DNA from: Planctomycetota bacterium
Lineage (GTDB): Bacteria; Planctomycetota; SZUA-567
Assembly (NCBI GenBank): GCA_031254915.1
Contig: JAIRTL010000037.1
Coordinates: forward strand, 1 to 64,000
Direction: 5' to 3'
Length of the DNA: 64,000 nucleotides
Positions within the stretch are counted from its first letter, which is position 1; each line of letters starts with the position of its first letter. Positions 13,042-61,617 of the stretch are shown here, piece after piece. Both the position numbers and the translations under genes were made by a program. Below the pieces are notes generated by a model. It saw nothing but the letters and a program-made list of their open reading frames with translations. It had not been told where the DNA came from and ran no database searches.

Positions 13042-13794
13042 ATGGCAGGACACAGCCATTGGTCGAACATCCAGCACAAAAAAGCCGCCAAGGACAAAAA
13101 GAAGGGCAAGGTCCTTTCCAAACTCATCAAACTCCTTTGCACCGCCGTCAAGGAAGGCGGTTCCGGGAAACCGGAGGAGAATCCGCGCCTCAGGCTGGTT
13201 CTTGACAAATGCCGGCTCGCCAACATGCCCAAAGACAACATTAAGCGCGCGATCGAAAAGGCGGCCGGAGGAAGCTCGGGCTACGATCCGATGGTGTTCG
13301 AGGGGTACGCGCAGGAAGGCGTCGCCGTGGTGGTGGAATGCCTGACGGACAACACCCAGCGCACCGGTCCGGAAATCCGCTACATTTTCGACCGCGGCGG
13401 AGCGAAAATGGGCAAACAGGGCTCCGTCATGCATATGTTCCAGAGAAAAGGCGTCTTCCAGGTCGAAAAGGAAAAGGCGGACGAAGAGGCGCTCATGGAC
13501 GTCGTGATCGAGGCCGGCGCCGAGGATGTGGTCGACCAGGACACGTTTTTCGAAATATACGCTGATCCCAATTCCTTCATGGCAGTCAACGACGCGCTTG
13601 AAAAGGCGGGGATCGAGGTGCAAAGCTCCGAAGTCCAGCTCATCGCGGACAACCGCATCGAGGTCTCCCTTGATGCGGCGCAGAAGATTTCCAAACTTAT
13701 CGACCAGCTCGAGGAAAACGAGGACGTCCAGAACGTCTACACCAATTTCGACGTCTCGGCGGAAACGGCGGAACGGTTGGCGGCGGAAGTCTGA
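13042..13794 (+). CDS. yebC: YebC/PmpR/TACO1-family protein
   Basis: Protein of 250 residues starting MAGHSHWSNIQHKKAAKDKK, the diagnostic start of the family. YebC-like proteins have been described both as transcriptional regulators and as ribosome-associated factors that help translation of difficult proline stretches; which applies here cannot be told. Length and the three-domain layout are normal. It sits 4 bp before the SpoU-type methyltransferase gene, which suggests translational coupling and fits a translation-related role. Confidence 0.93.
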   Translation: MAGHSHWSNIQHKKAAKDKKKGKVLSKLIKLLCTAVKEGGSGKPEENPRLRLVLDKCRLANMPKDNIKRAIEKAAGGSSGYDPMVFEGYAQEGVAVVVECLTDNTQRTGPEIRYIFDRGGAKMGKQGSVMHMFQRKGVFQVEKEKADEEALMDVVIEAGAEDVVDQDTFFEIYADPNSFMAVNDALEKAGIEVQSSEVQLIADNRIEVSLDAAQKISKLIDQLEENEDVQNVYTNFDVSAETAERLAAEV

Positions 13795-52207: not shown

Positions 52208-54250
52208 TCAGGCCTTGATATAGTTGTAGATGTTTTCGTAGTCCTTCGCCGGATTCTTCCAGGAGTAATTGTAGCGCATGCCGTTTCTGGCCAGGCGGTT
52301 GAAGGCGGGCGGATTGTCGTACCACAGCCTGATGGCGCGCTTGAGTCCGTAGTCGAGGCTTTCCGGGGTCGCGTCGCGGAAGCTGAAGCCGTTGGCGTTG
52401 TTCAGGCCCTTCCCCGAGTTCTCCAGATCGAAGACGGTGTCGACGAGGCCGCCGGTCTCGCGGACGACGGGCACGGCGCCGTAGCGTAGCGCGATCATCT
52501 GGGTCAGGCCGCAGGGCTCGTACAGGCTGGGAACGAGGAAGATGTCGCTGCCGGCGTAGATGAGGCGGGAAAGATCCTCGTGGTAGCCGATGTAGAGGTT
52601 GACGTCGTGATTGTCCTTGAGCTCATGCTGGAGGCGGAGGAAATCGGCGTTGACTTTCGGATCGGGGGCGCTTCCGAGAAGGACATATTGTCCCTGCTCC
52701 TCGATGGTGGCGAAAATGGCCCGCTTGATCAGGTCGAGGCCCTTCTGGTGCGTCAACCTGGTCACGACGGACACGATCGGCTTCCACGCGTCCCACAGAC
52801 CCAGCCATTCGCGCAGCGCCGTCTTGTTCTTGTACTTTTCGAAGAAGTCGTCGCCGATGGAATAGCGCGCCGCGATCTTCTGGTCGGTCTGCGGGTTCCA
52901 GGCTTCGTAATCGAGGCCGTTGAGGACGCCGCCGACCTTGGCGGCGTTCTTGGCGATGGTGTTCTGGAGCCCGCGGCCGCCGACGACGGTCTTGAGTTCG
53001 CCGGCGTAGGTGGGGCTGACGGTGGTGACGAAGTTCGAATAGACGATCCCCGCCTTCATCATGTTTATGCAGTTGTGGCGGGCGTCGTCCTGCATGCGGT
53101 CCATGCGCAGGTAGTTGCGGACGTCGAGTCCGACCATGCCCAGCAGCTTGTCGCCGAAGCCGCACAGGCCCTGGCATTCGTTGTTGTGGATGGTGTAGAC
53201 GACGCGCGAATTGTTCCAGCCCATCTTTCCGTAGATGTCCCAGAGCATGGCGGGGACAAGCCCGGTCGTCCAGTCGTGGCAGTGGATGATGTCGGGGCGG
53301 CGCCCGCTCTTGAAGAGGAACTCGAGCGCCTGGCGGCTGAAATACGCGAAGCGGTAGAGGTCGTCGTCGAAGCCGTAGATCGACGGCCTGTTCGAATAGA
53401 TGCCGCCGGTGATGAAATTGACCTTCAGGCCTTCGACCCACCCCTGGTACACCTTCTCGGATCGCCATTCGTTGAAGTGCGGACTCCACAGTTCGCCGTA
53501 AATTTCGTGAAGATCGTGGATGGTGTCGTAGCGCATGCAGGAATACATCGGCGCGATCACCTCGACCTCGTGGCCGCGATTCATCAGTTCGCGCCCCAGA
53601 CCCTGGACGACGTCGCCGAGGCCGCCCACCTTGGCGGTGGGAGCGACTTCCGGAGCGATCATGACGATGTACAACCTTTTCTCCTTGGGGAGGACCCGGG
53701 TGGTTCGATATTCCGGCATGCTCCACCCGTCGCCGGAATCGTCTTCCCCGAAATACTCCTCCGCGACGGCCGCGGCCGGGTCGTCCTCGAAAGTCACCGG
53801 CGCCTTGGCGCTCACCGTCCCGAAAACCCCGTGCCCGGCGGGGAGATTTTCCTCCGGAATGTCCGCCTCCGAAGCGGCGCCGCCCGGATAGCCGAGGCGC
53901 GGCACGCCCTCGAAATAGGCCGGATCAACCTCGAGCGCCGGCGGCGGCGCGTAAGCGGGCAGAGAATCGGGATCGACGACCTGGATCGGCTCCGACCCCT
54001 CCCGAATCGCGACCGGTTCGGCCGTGACGTCGGAAAGCCGGCCATCCTCCCGCGCCGCATCGGCGGCGGCCCCGGAAACGGCAACCGCGCCGCCCAACGG
54101 CGGCAAGCCGCGTATTTCCGGCGTATCCGGCGTCTTGGGAACGGGCGGCGCCGACGCGGCGCGGATAACCGCGCTCCTTCCGGAGCGGGAAAGCCGTGCC
54201 CGCCTCGCCTTCGCCTCGGCCCTGCGCTTATGCTCTTTTTTCGACGCCAT
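52208..54250 (-). CDS. glgA: Glycogen synthase with long N-terminal extension
   Basis: GT5 glycogen synthase using ADP-glucose (or UDP-glucose). The catalytic part begins near residue 192 (LYIVMIAPEVAPTAKVGGLG) and holds KVGGLGDVV, DIIHCHDWTTGLVPAMLW and the C-terminal FLVPSLYEPCGLTQMIA. The first ~185 residues are extra: a highly basic start (KKEHKRRAEAKARRARLSR) and a proline/alanine-rich, acidic, probably unordered part. Total 680 residues against about 480 for ordinary GlgA. Its promoter lies at 54311-54339. It heads the pilT-pilC-pilS-pilR-pseudouridine synthase run, a curious mix. Confidence 0.92.
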   Translation of the reverse strand: MASKKEHKRRAEAKARRARLSRSGRSAVIRAASAPPVPKTPDTPEIRGLPPLGGAVAVSGAAADAAREDGRLSDVTAEPVAIREGSEPIQVVDPDSLPAYAPPPALEVDPAYFEGVPRLGYPGGAASEADIPEENLPAGHGVFGTVSAKAPVTFEDDPAAAVAEEYFGEDDSGDGWSMPEYRTTRVLPKEKRLYIVMIAPEVAPTAKVGGLGDVVQGLGRELMNRGHEVEVIAPMYSCMRYDTIHDLHEIYGELWSPHFNEWRSEKVYQGWVEGLKVNFITGGIYSNRPSIYGFDDDLYRFAYFSRQALEFLFKSGRRPDIIHCHDWTTGLVPAMLWDIYGKMGWNNSRVVYTIHNNECQGLCGFGDKLLGMVGLDVRNYLRMDRMQDDARHNCINMMKAGIVYSNFVTTVSPTYAGELKTVVGGRGLQNTIAKNAAKVGGVLNGLDYEAWNPQTDQKIAARYSIGDDFFEKYKNKTALREWLGLWDAWKPIVSVVTRLTHQKGLDLIKRAIFATIEEQGQYVLLGSAPDPKVNADFLRLQHELKDNHDVNLYIGYHEDLSRLIYAGSDIFLVPSLYEPCGLTQMIALRYGAVPVVRETGGLVDTVFDLENSGKGLNNANGFSFRDATPESLDYGLKRAIRLWYDNPPAFNRLARNGMRYNYSWKNPAKDYENIYNYIKA

Positions 54251-55245: not shown

Positions 55246-55290
55246 GACAACCGCCCCGAACCGTCTCTGGCGCGGTTCGGGGCGGTTGTC
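55246..55290. repeat. Perfect 18-bp inverted repeat
   Basis: GACAACCGCCCCGAACCG (55246-55263), 9-nt spacer, CGGTTCGGGGCGGTTGTC (55273-55290). No T-tract on either side. It lies in the 110 bp between the GH57 gene and the CysZ-like gene, both on the minus strand, 17 bp after the GH57 stop. Confidence 0.85.
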
Positions 55291-55306
55291 CGACGCGAGG
55301 CCGCGC

Positions 55307-57757
55307 CTACCCGTCCGCCATCCTGCGGAAGTCCATGTCGTCGAACGCGAAAATGCAGTCCGCCGTTTCAAGCGTGCAGAGATAGGTCATATCGATACGG
55401 TCGTTTTCTATCTGGCGCAGAAGCTCCCGCGTCCTCGCCGCGTGGACAGTGATGCGGAGTTCCGAATAGCGCACCGCCTGTCCAGTCTCGATGAGGAACC
55501 CCCAGTCCGAGGAAATCGCCAGGAAGAGCTCGCGCACAGCCTGGTTGAGGGCGCGGACCAGGATCGGATCCTCGGTGTTCCTGTGCTTGTTCGCCAGCGT
55601 CTTCACCTGCTGCGAGAGCCGGTACATGTGGCGGTAGACCCAGCAATTGGGCTGGTAGCTGCGTCCGTCCACCCAGGTCTGGAAATAATCCTTCTTGCCC
55701 CACGAACTCGCGCCCGGCATCATGCGCTGGTGGCGCTTTTGCTCGCCGAGGTATTCGGACGGCGTGACCGGACGGACCTCGACCTGATCGTAAAGCAGCT
55801 TGCGGAACACGGACTCGATCCACAGCGGCCCCTCTTCCCACCAGTGGCCGAACAGTTCCGCGTCATAGGCCGAAACAACCATCGACTTGTGGTTCGTCGA
55901 GCGCTGGACATGGTGCGCCTTGGCGCCGCGATAATAGGCGAACTGGCCGGCCTGCTCGTGAACTGTGCCTTCGGCCCACATGGGGTTGTAATAATCCTTG
56001 TCGCCGAGGCTGCCGCCTTTCCTGGTGATGCGGTAATACTTGATGCCGGTGTTGCGGCGCACGTTCGCGGTCTGGAAATACTCGGGGAGATAGTCCCATT
56101 CCGCCTCGTAGCCGAGGTCACGATACCATTCCTTGTAATTCGGGTGCCCGGGATATCCGCCTTCGCGCGACCACACGGAGGAGCGCGTCTCTTCGTCGAT
56201 GCCGAAGAAGGCGACGCCGGCGGGGGAGATCACCGGGGCGTCGGTGCCGAAGAACGACTTGGTGTCGCCCTGGTCGATGCCGGCGGCGCTCATCAGCGTC
56301 CACTTGATGCCGTTGTCGGCGAGAAGCTTGTCAATGCCGGGGGTGAAGGCGTTTTCGGGCAGCCAGAAACCGCGCGGCGGGCGGCCGAAGACGCGCTCGT
56401 ACTGCTTGACGCCGGTGGCGATCTGGGCGTTGGCGGCTTCCGGGACATGTTTGAAGAGGGGCAGGATCATGTGCGTGGCGGCGCAGGTGATGACCTCGAT
56501 CTTCCCCATGTTCTGGAAGTCGCGGTAGCCGCGCGTCAGGTCGCCTTCGTAGGCGTCGAAAACGGTTTTGGCGATCCAGAAGCGGTGCAGGGTCTGTTCG
56601 ATCGTGTCGTACCAGGGCTTCCCCTTCGAGTTGTCCCGCTCCCTGGTGGCGAGGGCGATCAATTCGTCGATATGCCGCGAGGCGCGCTTCTGGAGAAGGG
56701 GCGTCTGCATCATCGACAGCAACGACGGCGTCAACGACAAGGTGACGCGGAAATCGACCTTGTCCTTTTCGAGCCGCCAGAACATGTTGAGAAGCTGGGT
56801 GTACACCGACGCCACCGCTTCCATGAACCACTGTTCCTCGAGGGGAACGTCGTATTCCGGATGATGGACGAACGGCAAATGCTGGTGGAGGACAAGCGAC
56901 CAGTAGCCGCGTTCGTCGGGCGCGTAGTGGGTGCGGTTTTTCCAGTAATTGTACTGGTTGATGCGCCATTCCGACTGCCCGACCTCGAGGATGACGTTGT
57001 TCGGATCGACCTCGATGTCCGCCCAGTCCGCGTACTTCTGCCGGTTCGTCGCGGAATCCCTCGGCGCGAAGGCGCTGTTGGAACGGGCGACGACCTCGAA
57101 ATACTCGGTCCCCTCGGCGCGGTAGCCGATTTCGGCGACGTAGTCGTTGTCCGGCTTCACCTTGACCCAATACTCGTTCTTGTCGTTGAGCCAGTCGTCG
57201 ACCTCGAACATCGAGTGCGCGTTGAAGCCGCTGAATTCTATGCCCGTGACCTGATAGACGCGGAGGATCAGCCGGTTCTTTTCGAAGAAATCGTCGCCGA
57301 ACTTCGTTTTCAACCCTTCGCGCGTGCTATCCCCCACCTCCCAGACGGCGAACATGGACTCCGGGTCGCGGGGAATGAGGTAGAGATATGTCTCGTTGTA
57401 CAGCGGATCGAGATACGGCACTTCCTTGAGAAGGTCGAGGTTGATTTTGACCCGCACTCCCTCTTCGCCGGGGATCGCTTCGCCGGGCCGGAGGCCGTCG
57501 TCCTCCTTCGCCGCTTTTTGGACGCCGGTGTTCGCCGACACCCTGCCGCCGGAACGGATGACGTCCTTCTTTTCGCCCGTTTCCTTGAGGGATTTGAGCC
57601 GGCCGGAAACGCCGGCCTTGAGGACGGCGCCGTTTTCGGGCGCGCCCGGCCGCTCTTCGACGGCCCCGGACGCGGCCGGTCGTTCGGCCGCCGCTTCGGG
57701 AACGTCCGTCTTGTCGGGACGGTTTTCGTCCATGCCCTGTTCCAGGCCTTTGGCCAT
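55307..57757 (-). CDS. DUF4912-GH57 protein, probable 1,4-alpha-glucan branching enzyme
   Basis: Protein of 816 residues. After a charged, unordered start (about 1-95) comes a DUF4912 domain (about 110-255: NETYLYLIPRDPESMFAVWE), a possible sugar-binding module. The GH57/DUF1957 catalytic part begins with SLVLHQHLPFVHHPEY; the nucleophile Glu is in GFWLPENAFTPGID (about 467) and the acid Asp in SAYDAELFGHWW (about 630). Related GH57 enzymes branch glycogen. Its place next to glgA fits. The promoter is at 57812-57840. Substrate specificity (branching or amylopullulanase-like) is inferred. Confidence 0.88.
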   Translation of the reverse strand: MAKGLEQGMDENRPDKTDVPEAAAERPAASGAVEERPGAPENGAVLKAGVSGRLKSLKETGEKKDVIRSGGRVSANTGVQKAAKEDDGLRPGEAIPGEEGVRVKINLDLLKEVPYLDPLYNETYLYLIPRDPESMFAVWEVGDSTREGLKTKFGDDFFEKNRLILRVYQVTGIEFSGFNAHSMFEVDDWLNDKNEYWVKVKPDNDYVAEIGYRAEGTEYFEVVARSNSAFAPRDSATNRQKYADWADIEVDPNNVILEVGQSEWRINQYNYWKNRTHYAPDERGYWSLVLHQHLPFVHHPEYDVPLEEQWFMEAVASVYTQLLNMFWRLEKDKVDFRVTLSLTPSLLSMMQTPLLQKRASRHIDELIALATRERDNSKGKPWYDTIEQTLHRFWIAKTVFDAYEGDLTRGYRDFQNMGKIEVITCAATHMILPLFKHVPEAANAQIATGVKQYERVFGRPPRGFWLPENAFTPGIDKLLADNGIKWTLMSAAGIDQGDTKSFFGTDAPVISPAGVAFFGIDEETRSSVWSREGGYPGHPNYKEWYRDLGYEAEWDYLPEYFQTANVRRNTGIKYYRITRKGGSLGDKDYYNPMWAEGTVHEQAGQFAYYRGAKAHHVQRSTNHKSMVVSAYDAELFGHWWEEGPLWIESVFRKLLYDQVEVRPVTPSEYLGEQKRHQRMMPGASSWGKKDYFQTWVDGRSYQPNCWVYRHMYRLSQQVKTLANKHRNTEDPILVRALNQAVRELFLAISSDWGFLIETGQAVRYSELRITVHAARTRELLRQIENDRIDMTYLCTLETADCIFAFDDMDFRRMADG

Positions 57758-57811
57758 GTCGTTCCCCCTTGTCATTGGATGTGGGAATGCGGACTCGCCC
57801 GCGCGGCATAC

Positions 57812-57840
57812 AGAATAGGGCATGACGCAAACGAACGCAA
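57812..57840 (-). promoter_or_regulatory. Promoter of the GH57 gene
   Basis: On the minus strand TTGCGT (57840-57835), 17-bp spacer, TATTCT (57817-57812). Transcription would start near 57805, about 48 nt before the ATG. AAGGGGG lies at the ribosome-binding position. Confidence 0.65.
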
Positions 57841-57967
57841 GCGAACGTCGTTGATTTCCGTGAAAGCGCACAGCGTTTGTCGATGGAAGACTCGGTTGCG
57901 TTCGCCGCCCCGCGCCGCGCGGGACGGGTTCGGAAAGCGATGCGCCGCGGACTTCGCGCCGCCATGC

Positions 57968-60214
57968 TCATTGCATCGACGCGGGATCGATGTCGAGGGT
58001 CGTTTTGACGCCGCCCTGCTCGCCCGGGATTATCCTCGCGGCGGAAAGCCATTGGGAAAGCCCGACGTGGTCCGGCGCGAACAGCATGATGTGCCGGCGG
58101 TATACGCCCCGAAGGCGCTCGATTTCGCACGGCGCGGGACCGAGCAGGCGCAGGCCGCCCTTGAGTTCCGCCTTCGCCGCGGCGCCGACCCGCCTCGCCT
58201 CCTCCTCCACCGCGCCGCGCTTTTCGCCCGAAAAAACCAGCCTTGCCAAGCGCCCGAACGGCGGATAGCCGCCGCGCCGGCGGTCCGGCAGTTCCGTTTC
58301 GATAAAGCCGCCGTAATTCCGTTCCACGGCGAACCGCACCGCCGGGTGTTCCGGCTGGAACGCCTGGACGACCGCGAGCCCGGGTTTCTCCGCCCTGCCC
58401 GCCCGGCCGATCACCTGGGTGACGAGTTGGAAGGTCCGTTCCGACGCGCGGAAATCGGTCAGCCCCAACGCGCCGTCCGCCATGAGGACGCCCACCAGGG
58501 TGACGTTCGGGAAATCGAGCCCCTTGGCGACCATCTGCGTGCCGAGAAGAATGTCGTATTCGCCGCGCGCGAAGGCGGCGAGAGCGTCCTTGTGCGCGTC
58601 CTTCGCCCCCATGCTGTCCGAATCCATCCTGAGAAGCCGCGCCCTGGGGAACAACGACCCGAGCGCATCTTCGGCCCGCTCCGTCCCGGCGCCGCCGAAC
58701 CGGAGCGCCCTCGCCCCGCAGGCGGGGCACGTGTCCGGAACGGAAAGCGTCCTCCCGCAATAGCCGCAACGCATCACCCCTTCGCCGCGGTGGTGGGTCA
58801 TGGCGATGTCGCAGTCCGGGCATTCCATGGCGTCGCCGCAGGCGGCGCAGCGGACGATCGTATGAAAGCCGCGCCGGTTGAGGAAAAGGATGGCCTGCCC
58901 GCGTCTGGCGAGGCAGTCCCCGAGCGCGCGTTCAAGATCGCGCGATATCAGGACCGGCCGCTTGACGTCCGCCCATTCCCGCCGAAGGTCGACGACCTTC
59001 ACCTCGGGCGGTCTCGCGCCGCCGGCCCGGGTGGGCATGGCGACGATCCGGTGTTTGCCGGAAAGGGCGTTGGCCCAGCTTTCCAGGGACGGCGTCGCCG
59101 AGCCGAGCACCGCCACGGCGCCCGACAGCGAGGCGCGCACCAGCGCCAGGTCGCGCGCGTGATAGCGCGGATCGTTGTCCTGCTTGTAGGTGCGCTCGTG
59201 CTCCTCGTCGACGATCACGATTCCGAGGTCGCGAACCGGCGCGAACAAGGCCGACCGCGCCCCGACGGCGAGCTTCAATTCCCCCGACCGCAACCGCCGC
59301 CAATGCTCCGCCCGCTCCCCCTCGGCCAGATGCGAGTGCAGCACCGCGAGGCCGCCGAACCGGGATTCGAACCTGGCGACCGTCTGCGGGGTGAGGCTGA
59401 TTTCCGGCACCAGCGCAAGCGCGCCCCGTCCCGCCTCCACCGCCCTGGCGATCAGCCGCATATACACTTCCGTCTTGCCGCTGCCGGTGGCGCCGTGGAG
59501 GAGGAACGAGGCGAAGGCGCCGCCGTCCATCGCCGCGCCGATGGTCCGCACCGCGTCCGCCTGCTCCGGCGACATCGTGACGCCGCCGTCCCGGTCGAGG
59601 ACGCGCGTCGTTCCCGCCTCGGGGGCGGAGAAGGAGACAAACCCCTTTTTCGCGAGCTGCGCCAGCACCGGCGGCGAAAGGGACGCGGGCGCGCCCCCGG
59701 CATCCGGCCTGAGTGGGGCGCCGGAGTTCTCGCCGAACCATTCCGCGAGGGCGCAAAGCGCTTCAGCCTGACGGGGCGCTTTTCGGCGGTAGCGCTCCGC
59801 CTCCGCCGCGAGCGCCTCCGGCGGCGCGAGGGCGCGCAACTCCCGCGCCGCCCGCATCGCGCGGCCGCGCTTGACGCCGGCGGGAACGGCGGCGGCCAGA
59901 ACCGTTCCCCAACCGGTCCGGTACTACTTCGCCGCCCATTTCGTCAGTTCGAGGATGTCCGGCGGAATGCGTTCCGACTCCGGGGAGACGGAGGAAAGCT
60001 CCCTGACGAGCTTCGGATCGATTGGCGGGATCGGGGAAACGGACACGACGACGCCCCTGATGGAGCGCCTGCCGAACGGCGCCTCCACCCGGTCGCCGGG
60101 TGCGACGGGAAGCATGAAGGCGTCCGGTATCCGGTAATGGAACACCTTGGTCACCGGAGCCTCCACCACAACCCCGGCGTACAACGGTCTGTCGGAATTG
60201 GACACTGACGTCAC
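57968..60214 (-). pseudogene. priA: Primosomal protein PriA, interrupted by in-frame TAG
   Basis: Replication-restart helicase. From GTG 60214 (overlapping the previous stop as GTGA) the N-terminal DNA-binding domain reads YAGVVVEAPVTKVFHYRIP and RIPPDILELTKWAAK, then TAG at 59926-59924 (codon 97), then YRTGWGTVLAAAVPAG in the same frame. PriA normally has YY here, so a Tyr codon has become TAG. The remaining 652 codons are intact: GATGSGKTEVYMRLI, DEEHERTYKQDND, the four CxxC zinc pairs (CAACGDAMECPDC, CGYCGRTLSVPDTCPAC) and the helicase end. TAG ends other genes here. It may be a real nonsense mutation or a single-base sequence error. Confidence 0.88.
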
Positions 60215-61617
60215 CCCAGAAGCGCCGCCCGCCCGGGCAGGAAGCCGCCCGGGCGCACCTTGGCCGCAAGCTCCGCCTGGTCGAGGCTGAAAAGGGGCGA
60301 AATCTCGATCGCGATCGTCTCGCCGTAACGCCCGGCGCGGCCGGGGACGTCGATCCCCGCCGCCGCCAGCCATTCTCCGAAGTAGTTGGACAGAAGCTGG
60401 CGCGACGACGCGACCGAATCGACGCCGACCGCGTTCTTCACCGGGGCGAATTCGTGCTCGCGCTTGACCTCGAGGTTGACCGACTTCCCGGCGAAGGGGA
60501 TGGCGTCGAAAACAAAGGTCTCGAACTTGACGGCGTTCTCCTTCTCCGGCCGCACGATCTTTTCGCCGTCGTGGTATTGAACCTTCTTTCTGGCCTGGTG
60601 CCACGGCAGAAGGGCGCCGCCGCCGACCCGCTCCACGAAATCGACGTTGATGACGTGGATGGCGATCGACCCGGCCCAGAACTTGAGCCGCCCGGACCGG
60701 TCGCGCGCGTTCATGGTCTCGGCGTCGAGGTCGGAATACTCCACCACCGCGTCCCTGCCCCCGAGGCGGCAGACAATGCCGATCTTTTCGTCGGGCGCGT
60801 TCTTCTCGAGCACCTTCGACGACATCTCCGCGCCGCCCCGGACGTGCCAGCCGAGAAACCCGGGATCGGCTATGGTGACGAGGGGGTTGTCGACCTGGAA
60901 ATAGCTGATGTATTCGACGCCCCTGGAGCGCATGTCGGCGATCGCCCCGCTCGAGAGCAGGCCGGAAAGCGAACCGCCGTGCCCGTTCGGGTTCATCGCC
61001 AGCCTGGGCGGCGAGGCAAGCATGAGTTTGCCGCCGAAATCCAGGGACGGCACCATGCCCTGCATGAAAAAGAACACCGAATCGCGGTCGAGGCCGAGCC
61101 AGTCGTTTTCCTCGAAATACGCCTTCGTCGCCGGATCGTTTTCGAGGCTGGTCATGATGTACCACGGGATCGTCCTGCCGTAGCGCTTCGACCTGGCCTT
61201 GATCTGCTCGGCGTGCCACTGGAAAAGCGTCTTGCCGCTCACGGGACCCAGCGGATAGCAGCCTTTCGGCCCGGGAAAACCGAGGCGCGTCCCCTGCCCG
61301 CCGGCGACGAGGAACGCCGCCGCCTTGCCCGCCCGGAGGATGTCCTCGCCGACGGCGATCGCCTCGCGGTTCCGTTTTCCCTCGTCATGGTTGCGGGGAA
61401 GCTCCACCACCGGCGCCGGCTCGAGGGACGACAGGTCGACAGACGACCCGCCGCTTGAAAACTCCGACCGGCGCGCCCGTATCCAGGCGAAATCGACCGA
61501 GGCGCAATCGGCGAGGAGTTGGTCCCGCTCGTCGCCGGCCAAGGCGTTCCAATGCGCGAACACATGCCCCTGCCCGTTCGCCTCGAACGTTCTCCGCATC
61601 GTCTCGTAATCTGCCAT
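60211..61617 (-). CDS. Eukaryote-type UDP-N-acetylglucosamine/UDP-sugar pyrophosphorylase
   Basis: Protein of 468 residues of the UDPGP type 1 family (UAP1/AGX-like), not the bacterial GlmU fold. Marks: the nucleotide loop FLVAGGQGTRLGFPGPKG (about 100), NPNGHGGSLSGL, YISYFQVDNPLV and KFETFVFDAIPFAGKS. It probably makes UDP-GlcNAc, UDP-GalNAc or UDP-Glc from UTP and a sugar-1-phosphate. GGGAGGAT precedes the ATG. Its stop overlaps the priA start, so the two are translated together. Such enzymes are common in eukaryotes and in some PVC-type bacteria. Confidence 0.88.
   Translation of the reverse strand: MADYETMRRTFEANGQGHVFAHWNALAGDERDQLLADCASVDFAWIRARRSEFSSGGSSVDLSSLEPAPVVELPRNHDEGKRNREAIAVGEDILRAGKAAAFLVAGGQGTRLGFPGPKGCYPLGPVSGKTLFQWHAEQIKARSKRYGRTIPWYIMTSLENDPATKAYFEENDWLGLDRDSVFFFMQGMVPSLDFGGKLMLASPPRLAMNPNGHGGSLSGLLSSGAIADMRSRGVEYISYFQVDNPLVTIADPGFLGWHVRGGAEMSSKVLEKNAPDEKIGIVCRLGGRDAVVEYSDLDAETMNARDRSGRLKFWAGSIAIHVINVDFVERVGGGALLPWHQARKKVQYHDGEKIVRPEKENAVKFETFVFDAIPFAGKSVNLEVKREHEFAPVKNAVGVDSVASSRQLLSNYFGEWLAAAGIDVPGRAGRYGETIAIEISPLFSLDQAELAAKVRPGGFLPGRAALLG

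Follow-up and report, generated by a model that had tools for sequence, protein, structure and literature searches.

The priA locus

The window considered here is a stretch of 64,000 nucleotides, contig 9 of a draft Planctomycetota assembly (G000; 2.75 Mb, 137 contigs, 86.8% complete). Its minus strand from 57968 to 60214 translates as PriA with one internal stop, which confirms the in-frame TAG that an earlier note on this DNA had described inside an otherwise intact priA. The protein context of the stop is ...LTKWAAK*YRTGWGTVL..., where the asterisk is the TAG, and the features of the locus are collected in Table 1.

Table 1. Features of the priA gene in the window
Feature	Position	Strand	Evidence
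priA (primosomal protein N', replication-restart helicase), with one in-frame TAG	57968..60205	-	translation, Pfam domains on both sides, alignment of relatives
5' part, most of the PriA 3' DNA-binding domain (3'BD; Pfam PF17764)	59927..60205	-	Pfam match
In-frame TAG replacing the first Tyr of the conserved YY, in the 3'BD	59924..59926 (TAG 59926-59924)	-	translation, relatives
3' part, a single open frame: end of the 3'BD, winged-helix region, helicase lobes, Cys-rich zinc region, C-terminal domain	57971..59923	-	translation, Pfam
ATG, first in-frame start codon past the TAG	59855..59857	-	sequence

The assembled sequence does not hold PriA as one uninterrupted reading frame, as the TAG stands after codon 93-96. 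Searched on its own, the part before the TAG (59927-60214) matches Pfam PriA_3primeBD only (E 2.6e-17), while the part after it gives DEAD, ResIII, Helicase_C, Zn_ribbon_PriA and PriA_C; both parts match PriA domains, in line with the earlier claim of recognisable PriA on either side. The winged-helix region of the 3' part is placed from knowledge of the family (PMC4129139). If the TAG is read through, all PriA Pfam domains score above their cut-offs, and the PriA_3primeBD match spans the whole profile, with a score of 76.2 bits in place of 62.9.

The start of the gene is likely the GTG at 60205-60203, since the ATG at which priA starts in the aligned same-genus relative (G001) falls at that codon. 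Another candidate start, the GTG at 60214, shares bases with the stop codon of the gene upstream. With the start at 60205 the TAG would be codon 94 instead of codon 97, the number given earlier. The host assembly holds only one full priA match; two further, weak matches reach only parts of the helicase core and probably belong to other helicases. The gene is conserved in the family members, with no internal stops there.

The neighbours of priA, all on the minus strand, have candidate names from reading their sequences: glycogen synthase-like (52208-54250), DUF4912/GH57-like (55307-57871) and UTP-sugar pyrophosphorylase-like (60211-61617). The gene order of this neighbourhood is largely conserved in the same-genus relative. 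On the plus strand, opposite priA and its neighbour, an open frame of 1640 codons runs from 55286 to 60208; antisense frames of this kind are expected at about 65% G+C, and this one is no evidence of a gene.

The interrupted codon in relatives

Tyr occupies the position of the TAG in each of the eleven family relatives aligned in full, and in the split copy of a further genome (G009). The same-genus relative, whose PriA is 77-78% identical in amino acids to that of the window, has the Tyr intact, so the comparison with sister genomes that had been proposed gives a uniform answer across the family members spanning the site. The YY is also present in E. coli PriA (8fak, WAADYY), and the statement that the TAG stands in place of its first Tyr is upheld. 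A stop at this site is found in no relative examined.

The first Tyr is encoded by TAT in the same-genus relative and in the other ten family members whose alignments are full-length. Over 17 aligned relatives the codon is TAT in 12 and TAC in three, and the remaining two, from another family of the same class, have Arg or Gln. The ancestral codon would then be TAT or TAC, TAT being likelier, and with TAT in the nearest relatives, the step may have gone from T to G instead of C to G. The earlier proposal of TAC to TAG stands as a single-base step from Tyr to TAG, but its TAC origin is less likely than TAT given the full-length alignments of the family, which all have TAT.

The relatives also bear on whether the two parts could work as a functional split or shortened PriA, in the form of a small free-standing 3'BD protein or of a PriA without the 3'BD made from the ATG at 59857. 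Both parts are open frames, divided by the TAG close to where the 3'BD ends. The stop, however, removes the last residues of that domain, the joined match scores higher than the separate one, no relative has a stop at the site, and no start signal precedes the ATG. We give this possibility next to no weight.

PriA in the phylum

Matches to priA at E <= 1e-60 are present in 363 of 392 genomes of the phylum, mostly draft assemblies, which indicates that priA is rarely lost. Among the matches listed phylum-wide, an internal stop within PriA itself occurs only in the window's genome and in G042, a Planctomycetota draft genome of a different family, and both stops are TAG. The one in G042 is a single in-frame codon (L084, G042:C24, 835-837) that hits a variable residue between the helicase lobes, a different site from that in the window. 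No CUA tRNA is among the tRNAs found in G042. A trait shared by the two genomes is rejected given the other site, the other family and the lack of a CUA tRNA. Since more single substitutions lead to TAG than to any other stop in the host genome, two such codons in priA need no special cause. We also note a selenocysteine tRNA called by ARAGORN in G042 (L161, G042:C191).

Is TAG decoded as sense?

We turn to the question of whether the host could read the TAG as an amino acid. Two observations speak for amber readthrough or reassignment, through a suppressor tRNA or pyrrolysine, that would yield full-length PriA: the frame and its constraint continue beyond the TAG, and the distant PriA of G042 also has one in-frame TAG. 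The remaining evidence runs against it. In a 368-kb sample TAG terminates 39 of the 155 long coding frames, and RF1 is found above its family cut-off with no internal stop. A search for pyrrolysyl-tRNA synthetase (PylS) gives no match in the host assembly (87% complete); over the host and 20 relatives no match exceeds the cut-off, with sub-cut-off matches in four of the relatives. None of the 31 typed tRNA genes of the host has a CUA anticodon, a negative that is strong and not absolute because the tRNA set is incomplete; tRNA-Tyr(GTA) is present.

A pyrrolysine system is therefore rejected for want of a PylS over the cut-off, and a suppressor tRNA, for which a search had been suggested, for want of a CUA anticodon among these genes. 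Genome-wide recoding, in which TAG would be a rare terminator, RF1 lost and in-frame TAGs many, is rejected as well: TAG is a common terminator, RF1 is present, and the sampled conserved genes contain no further credible internal TAG. The TAG of G042, at a different and variable site in a genome where no CUA tRNA was found, lends readthrough no help. Searching the literature for recoding among Planctomycetota gave no relevant paper. We regard decoding of the TAG as very improbable, and the readthrough that had been offered as one option finds no support; the special case of a real and fixed TAG, served by a decoding factor that the assembly lacks because 13% of the genome is missing from it, is more improbable still.

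State of the assembly and of the gene

To place the stop among others in the genome, 396 kb of the same-genus genome serve as queries against a sample of the host, with matches of at least 55% identity retained. This homology survey matches 35 frames (15,605 codons), with no frameshift among them; apart from the TAG of priA, they show no credible internal stop in a conserved gene. Three other stops listed in the survey fall in frames apparently antisense to genes or in a decayed integrase; the two other window hits (47224 and 51504) are rejected as they look like frames opposite genes, and those in the same-genus genome look like wrong-frame or beyond-gene matches. The lone stop and the absence of frameshifts in the survey argue that the genome is not decaying, and the few other interruptions argue that the assembly is not error-rich.

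A coding-potential scan for internal stops over 368 kb of the host genome yields 12 candidates, only one of which is TAG (L071, 2066), and that one sits just ahead of the start of an Obg-like gene. The candidates at 13792 in the window (a YebC/TrmH-like pair) and at L079 14127 look like adjacent genes, and the one at L067 7008 is a decayed integrase. The integrase around that position (contig 55 of the host assembly) is of phage type and interrupted several times, and seems to be the remnant of a mobile-element gene. At its thresholds the scan misses the priA TAG itself, so the homology survey is the stronger test. TAG is the commonest stop one substitution away in the host genome, accounting for 12,809 of 24,359 stop-making changes, and an assumed per-base error rate of 1e-5 corresponds to about 0.7 stop-making errors over the assembly.

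Selection on priA can be followed by comparing the window with the same-genus relative. With L005 as outgroup, unique changes number 2 in the window against 9 in the relative for the N-terminal part, and 32 against 24 for the remainder of PriA. Over eight outgroups there is no consistent excess of changes in the window lineage on either side of the TAG, and accelerated decay of priA in that lineage is rejected by these counts. The differences by codon position are 36 third, 21 first and 12 second in the N-terminal part, and 279, 114 and 80 in the rest, an excess at third positions that we read as purifying selection. As constraint on priA is not relaxed, the TAG is recent, or not real.

Interpretation

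What we observe is a TAG in an intact frame, with intact relatives, no signs of recoding in the sample and no gene decay. The lone stop, the intact relatives and the missing signs of recoding favour one changed base or an error in the sequence, which had been put forward as the shortest explanation. We consider it probable that the TAG is an isolated single-base change, an assembly error or a minor-strain base in the draft consensus, in an organism that makes normal PriA. One base would have changed in an ordinary single-copy priA, turning a Tyr codon (TAT or TAC) into TAG, with no decoding mechanism behind it; the changed base would be a consensus error or one picked up from a minor strain, and the organism itself would produce normal PriA.

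Less probable, and still to be taken seriously, is that the nonsense mutation is real and recent and leaves the population with an inactive or truncated PriA, translation stopping after about 93 residues. The base is present in the assembly, which has few other interruptions, and the rest of the gene is unchanged, as a recent mutation predicts. E. coli priA null mutants are viable but sick. The cell might tolerate such a variant if replisome loading had changed to compensate, or if translation resumed weakly at the ATG at 59857. Against it stand the rare loss of priA in the phylum, the lack of any other decayed core gene in the sample, and an ATG that has no translation-initiation signal. Restart there had been proposed before: this ATG is the earliest in-frame start past the TAG, but nothing resembling a Shine-Dalgarno sequence lies upstream of it.

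A real TAG would end the product within the 3'BD, which together with the winged helix forms the DNA-binding part of PriA (PMC4129139). With the stop inside this domain and no visible start signal at the ATG, most PriA function would be expected to be lost. If the TAG were real and fixed, the bacterium would either live without intact PriA or read amber as sense, both of which are unusual. Since most genomes of the phylum retain PriA and the remainder of the gene is undegraded, a base of assembly or strain origin is somewhat likelier than a fixed mutation. We therefore infer an error or strain variant instead of a fixed mutation, and hold both to be far likelier than readthrough.

Comparison with known systems

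The predicted chain has the domain order of PriA from E. coli (8fak) and K. pneumoniae (4nl4), namely 3'BD, DEAD helicase lobes, Cys-rich zinc region and C-terminal domain. It shares the WAA.YY motif with the E. coli protein and differs by the TAG at the first Tyr of YY. Conserved sequence after an in-frame TAG is also a mark of amber decoding by pyrrolysine or suppressor tRNAs; unlike in those systems, however, no PylS or CUA tRNA is found in the host, RF1 is present and TAG is a common terminator.

No publication came up in a literature search for stop codons in metagenome assemblies. When a conserved gene of a draft metagenome assembly has a lone stop, the reads should be consulted before biological conclusions are drawn from it. 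The closest likeness is to the sporadic nonsense codons, errors or recent mutations, of draft metagenome-assembled genes, with which priA shares a single stop, an intact conserved frame, a fragmented assembly and intact close relatives. The evidence at hand holds no feature that sets the window priA apart from them.
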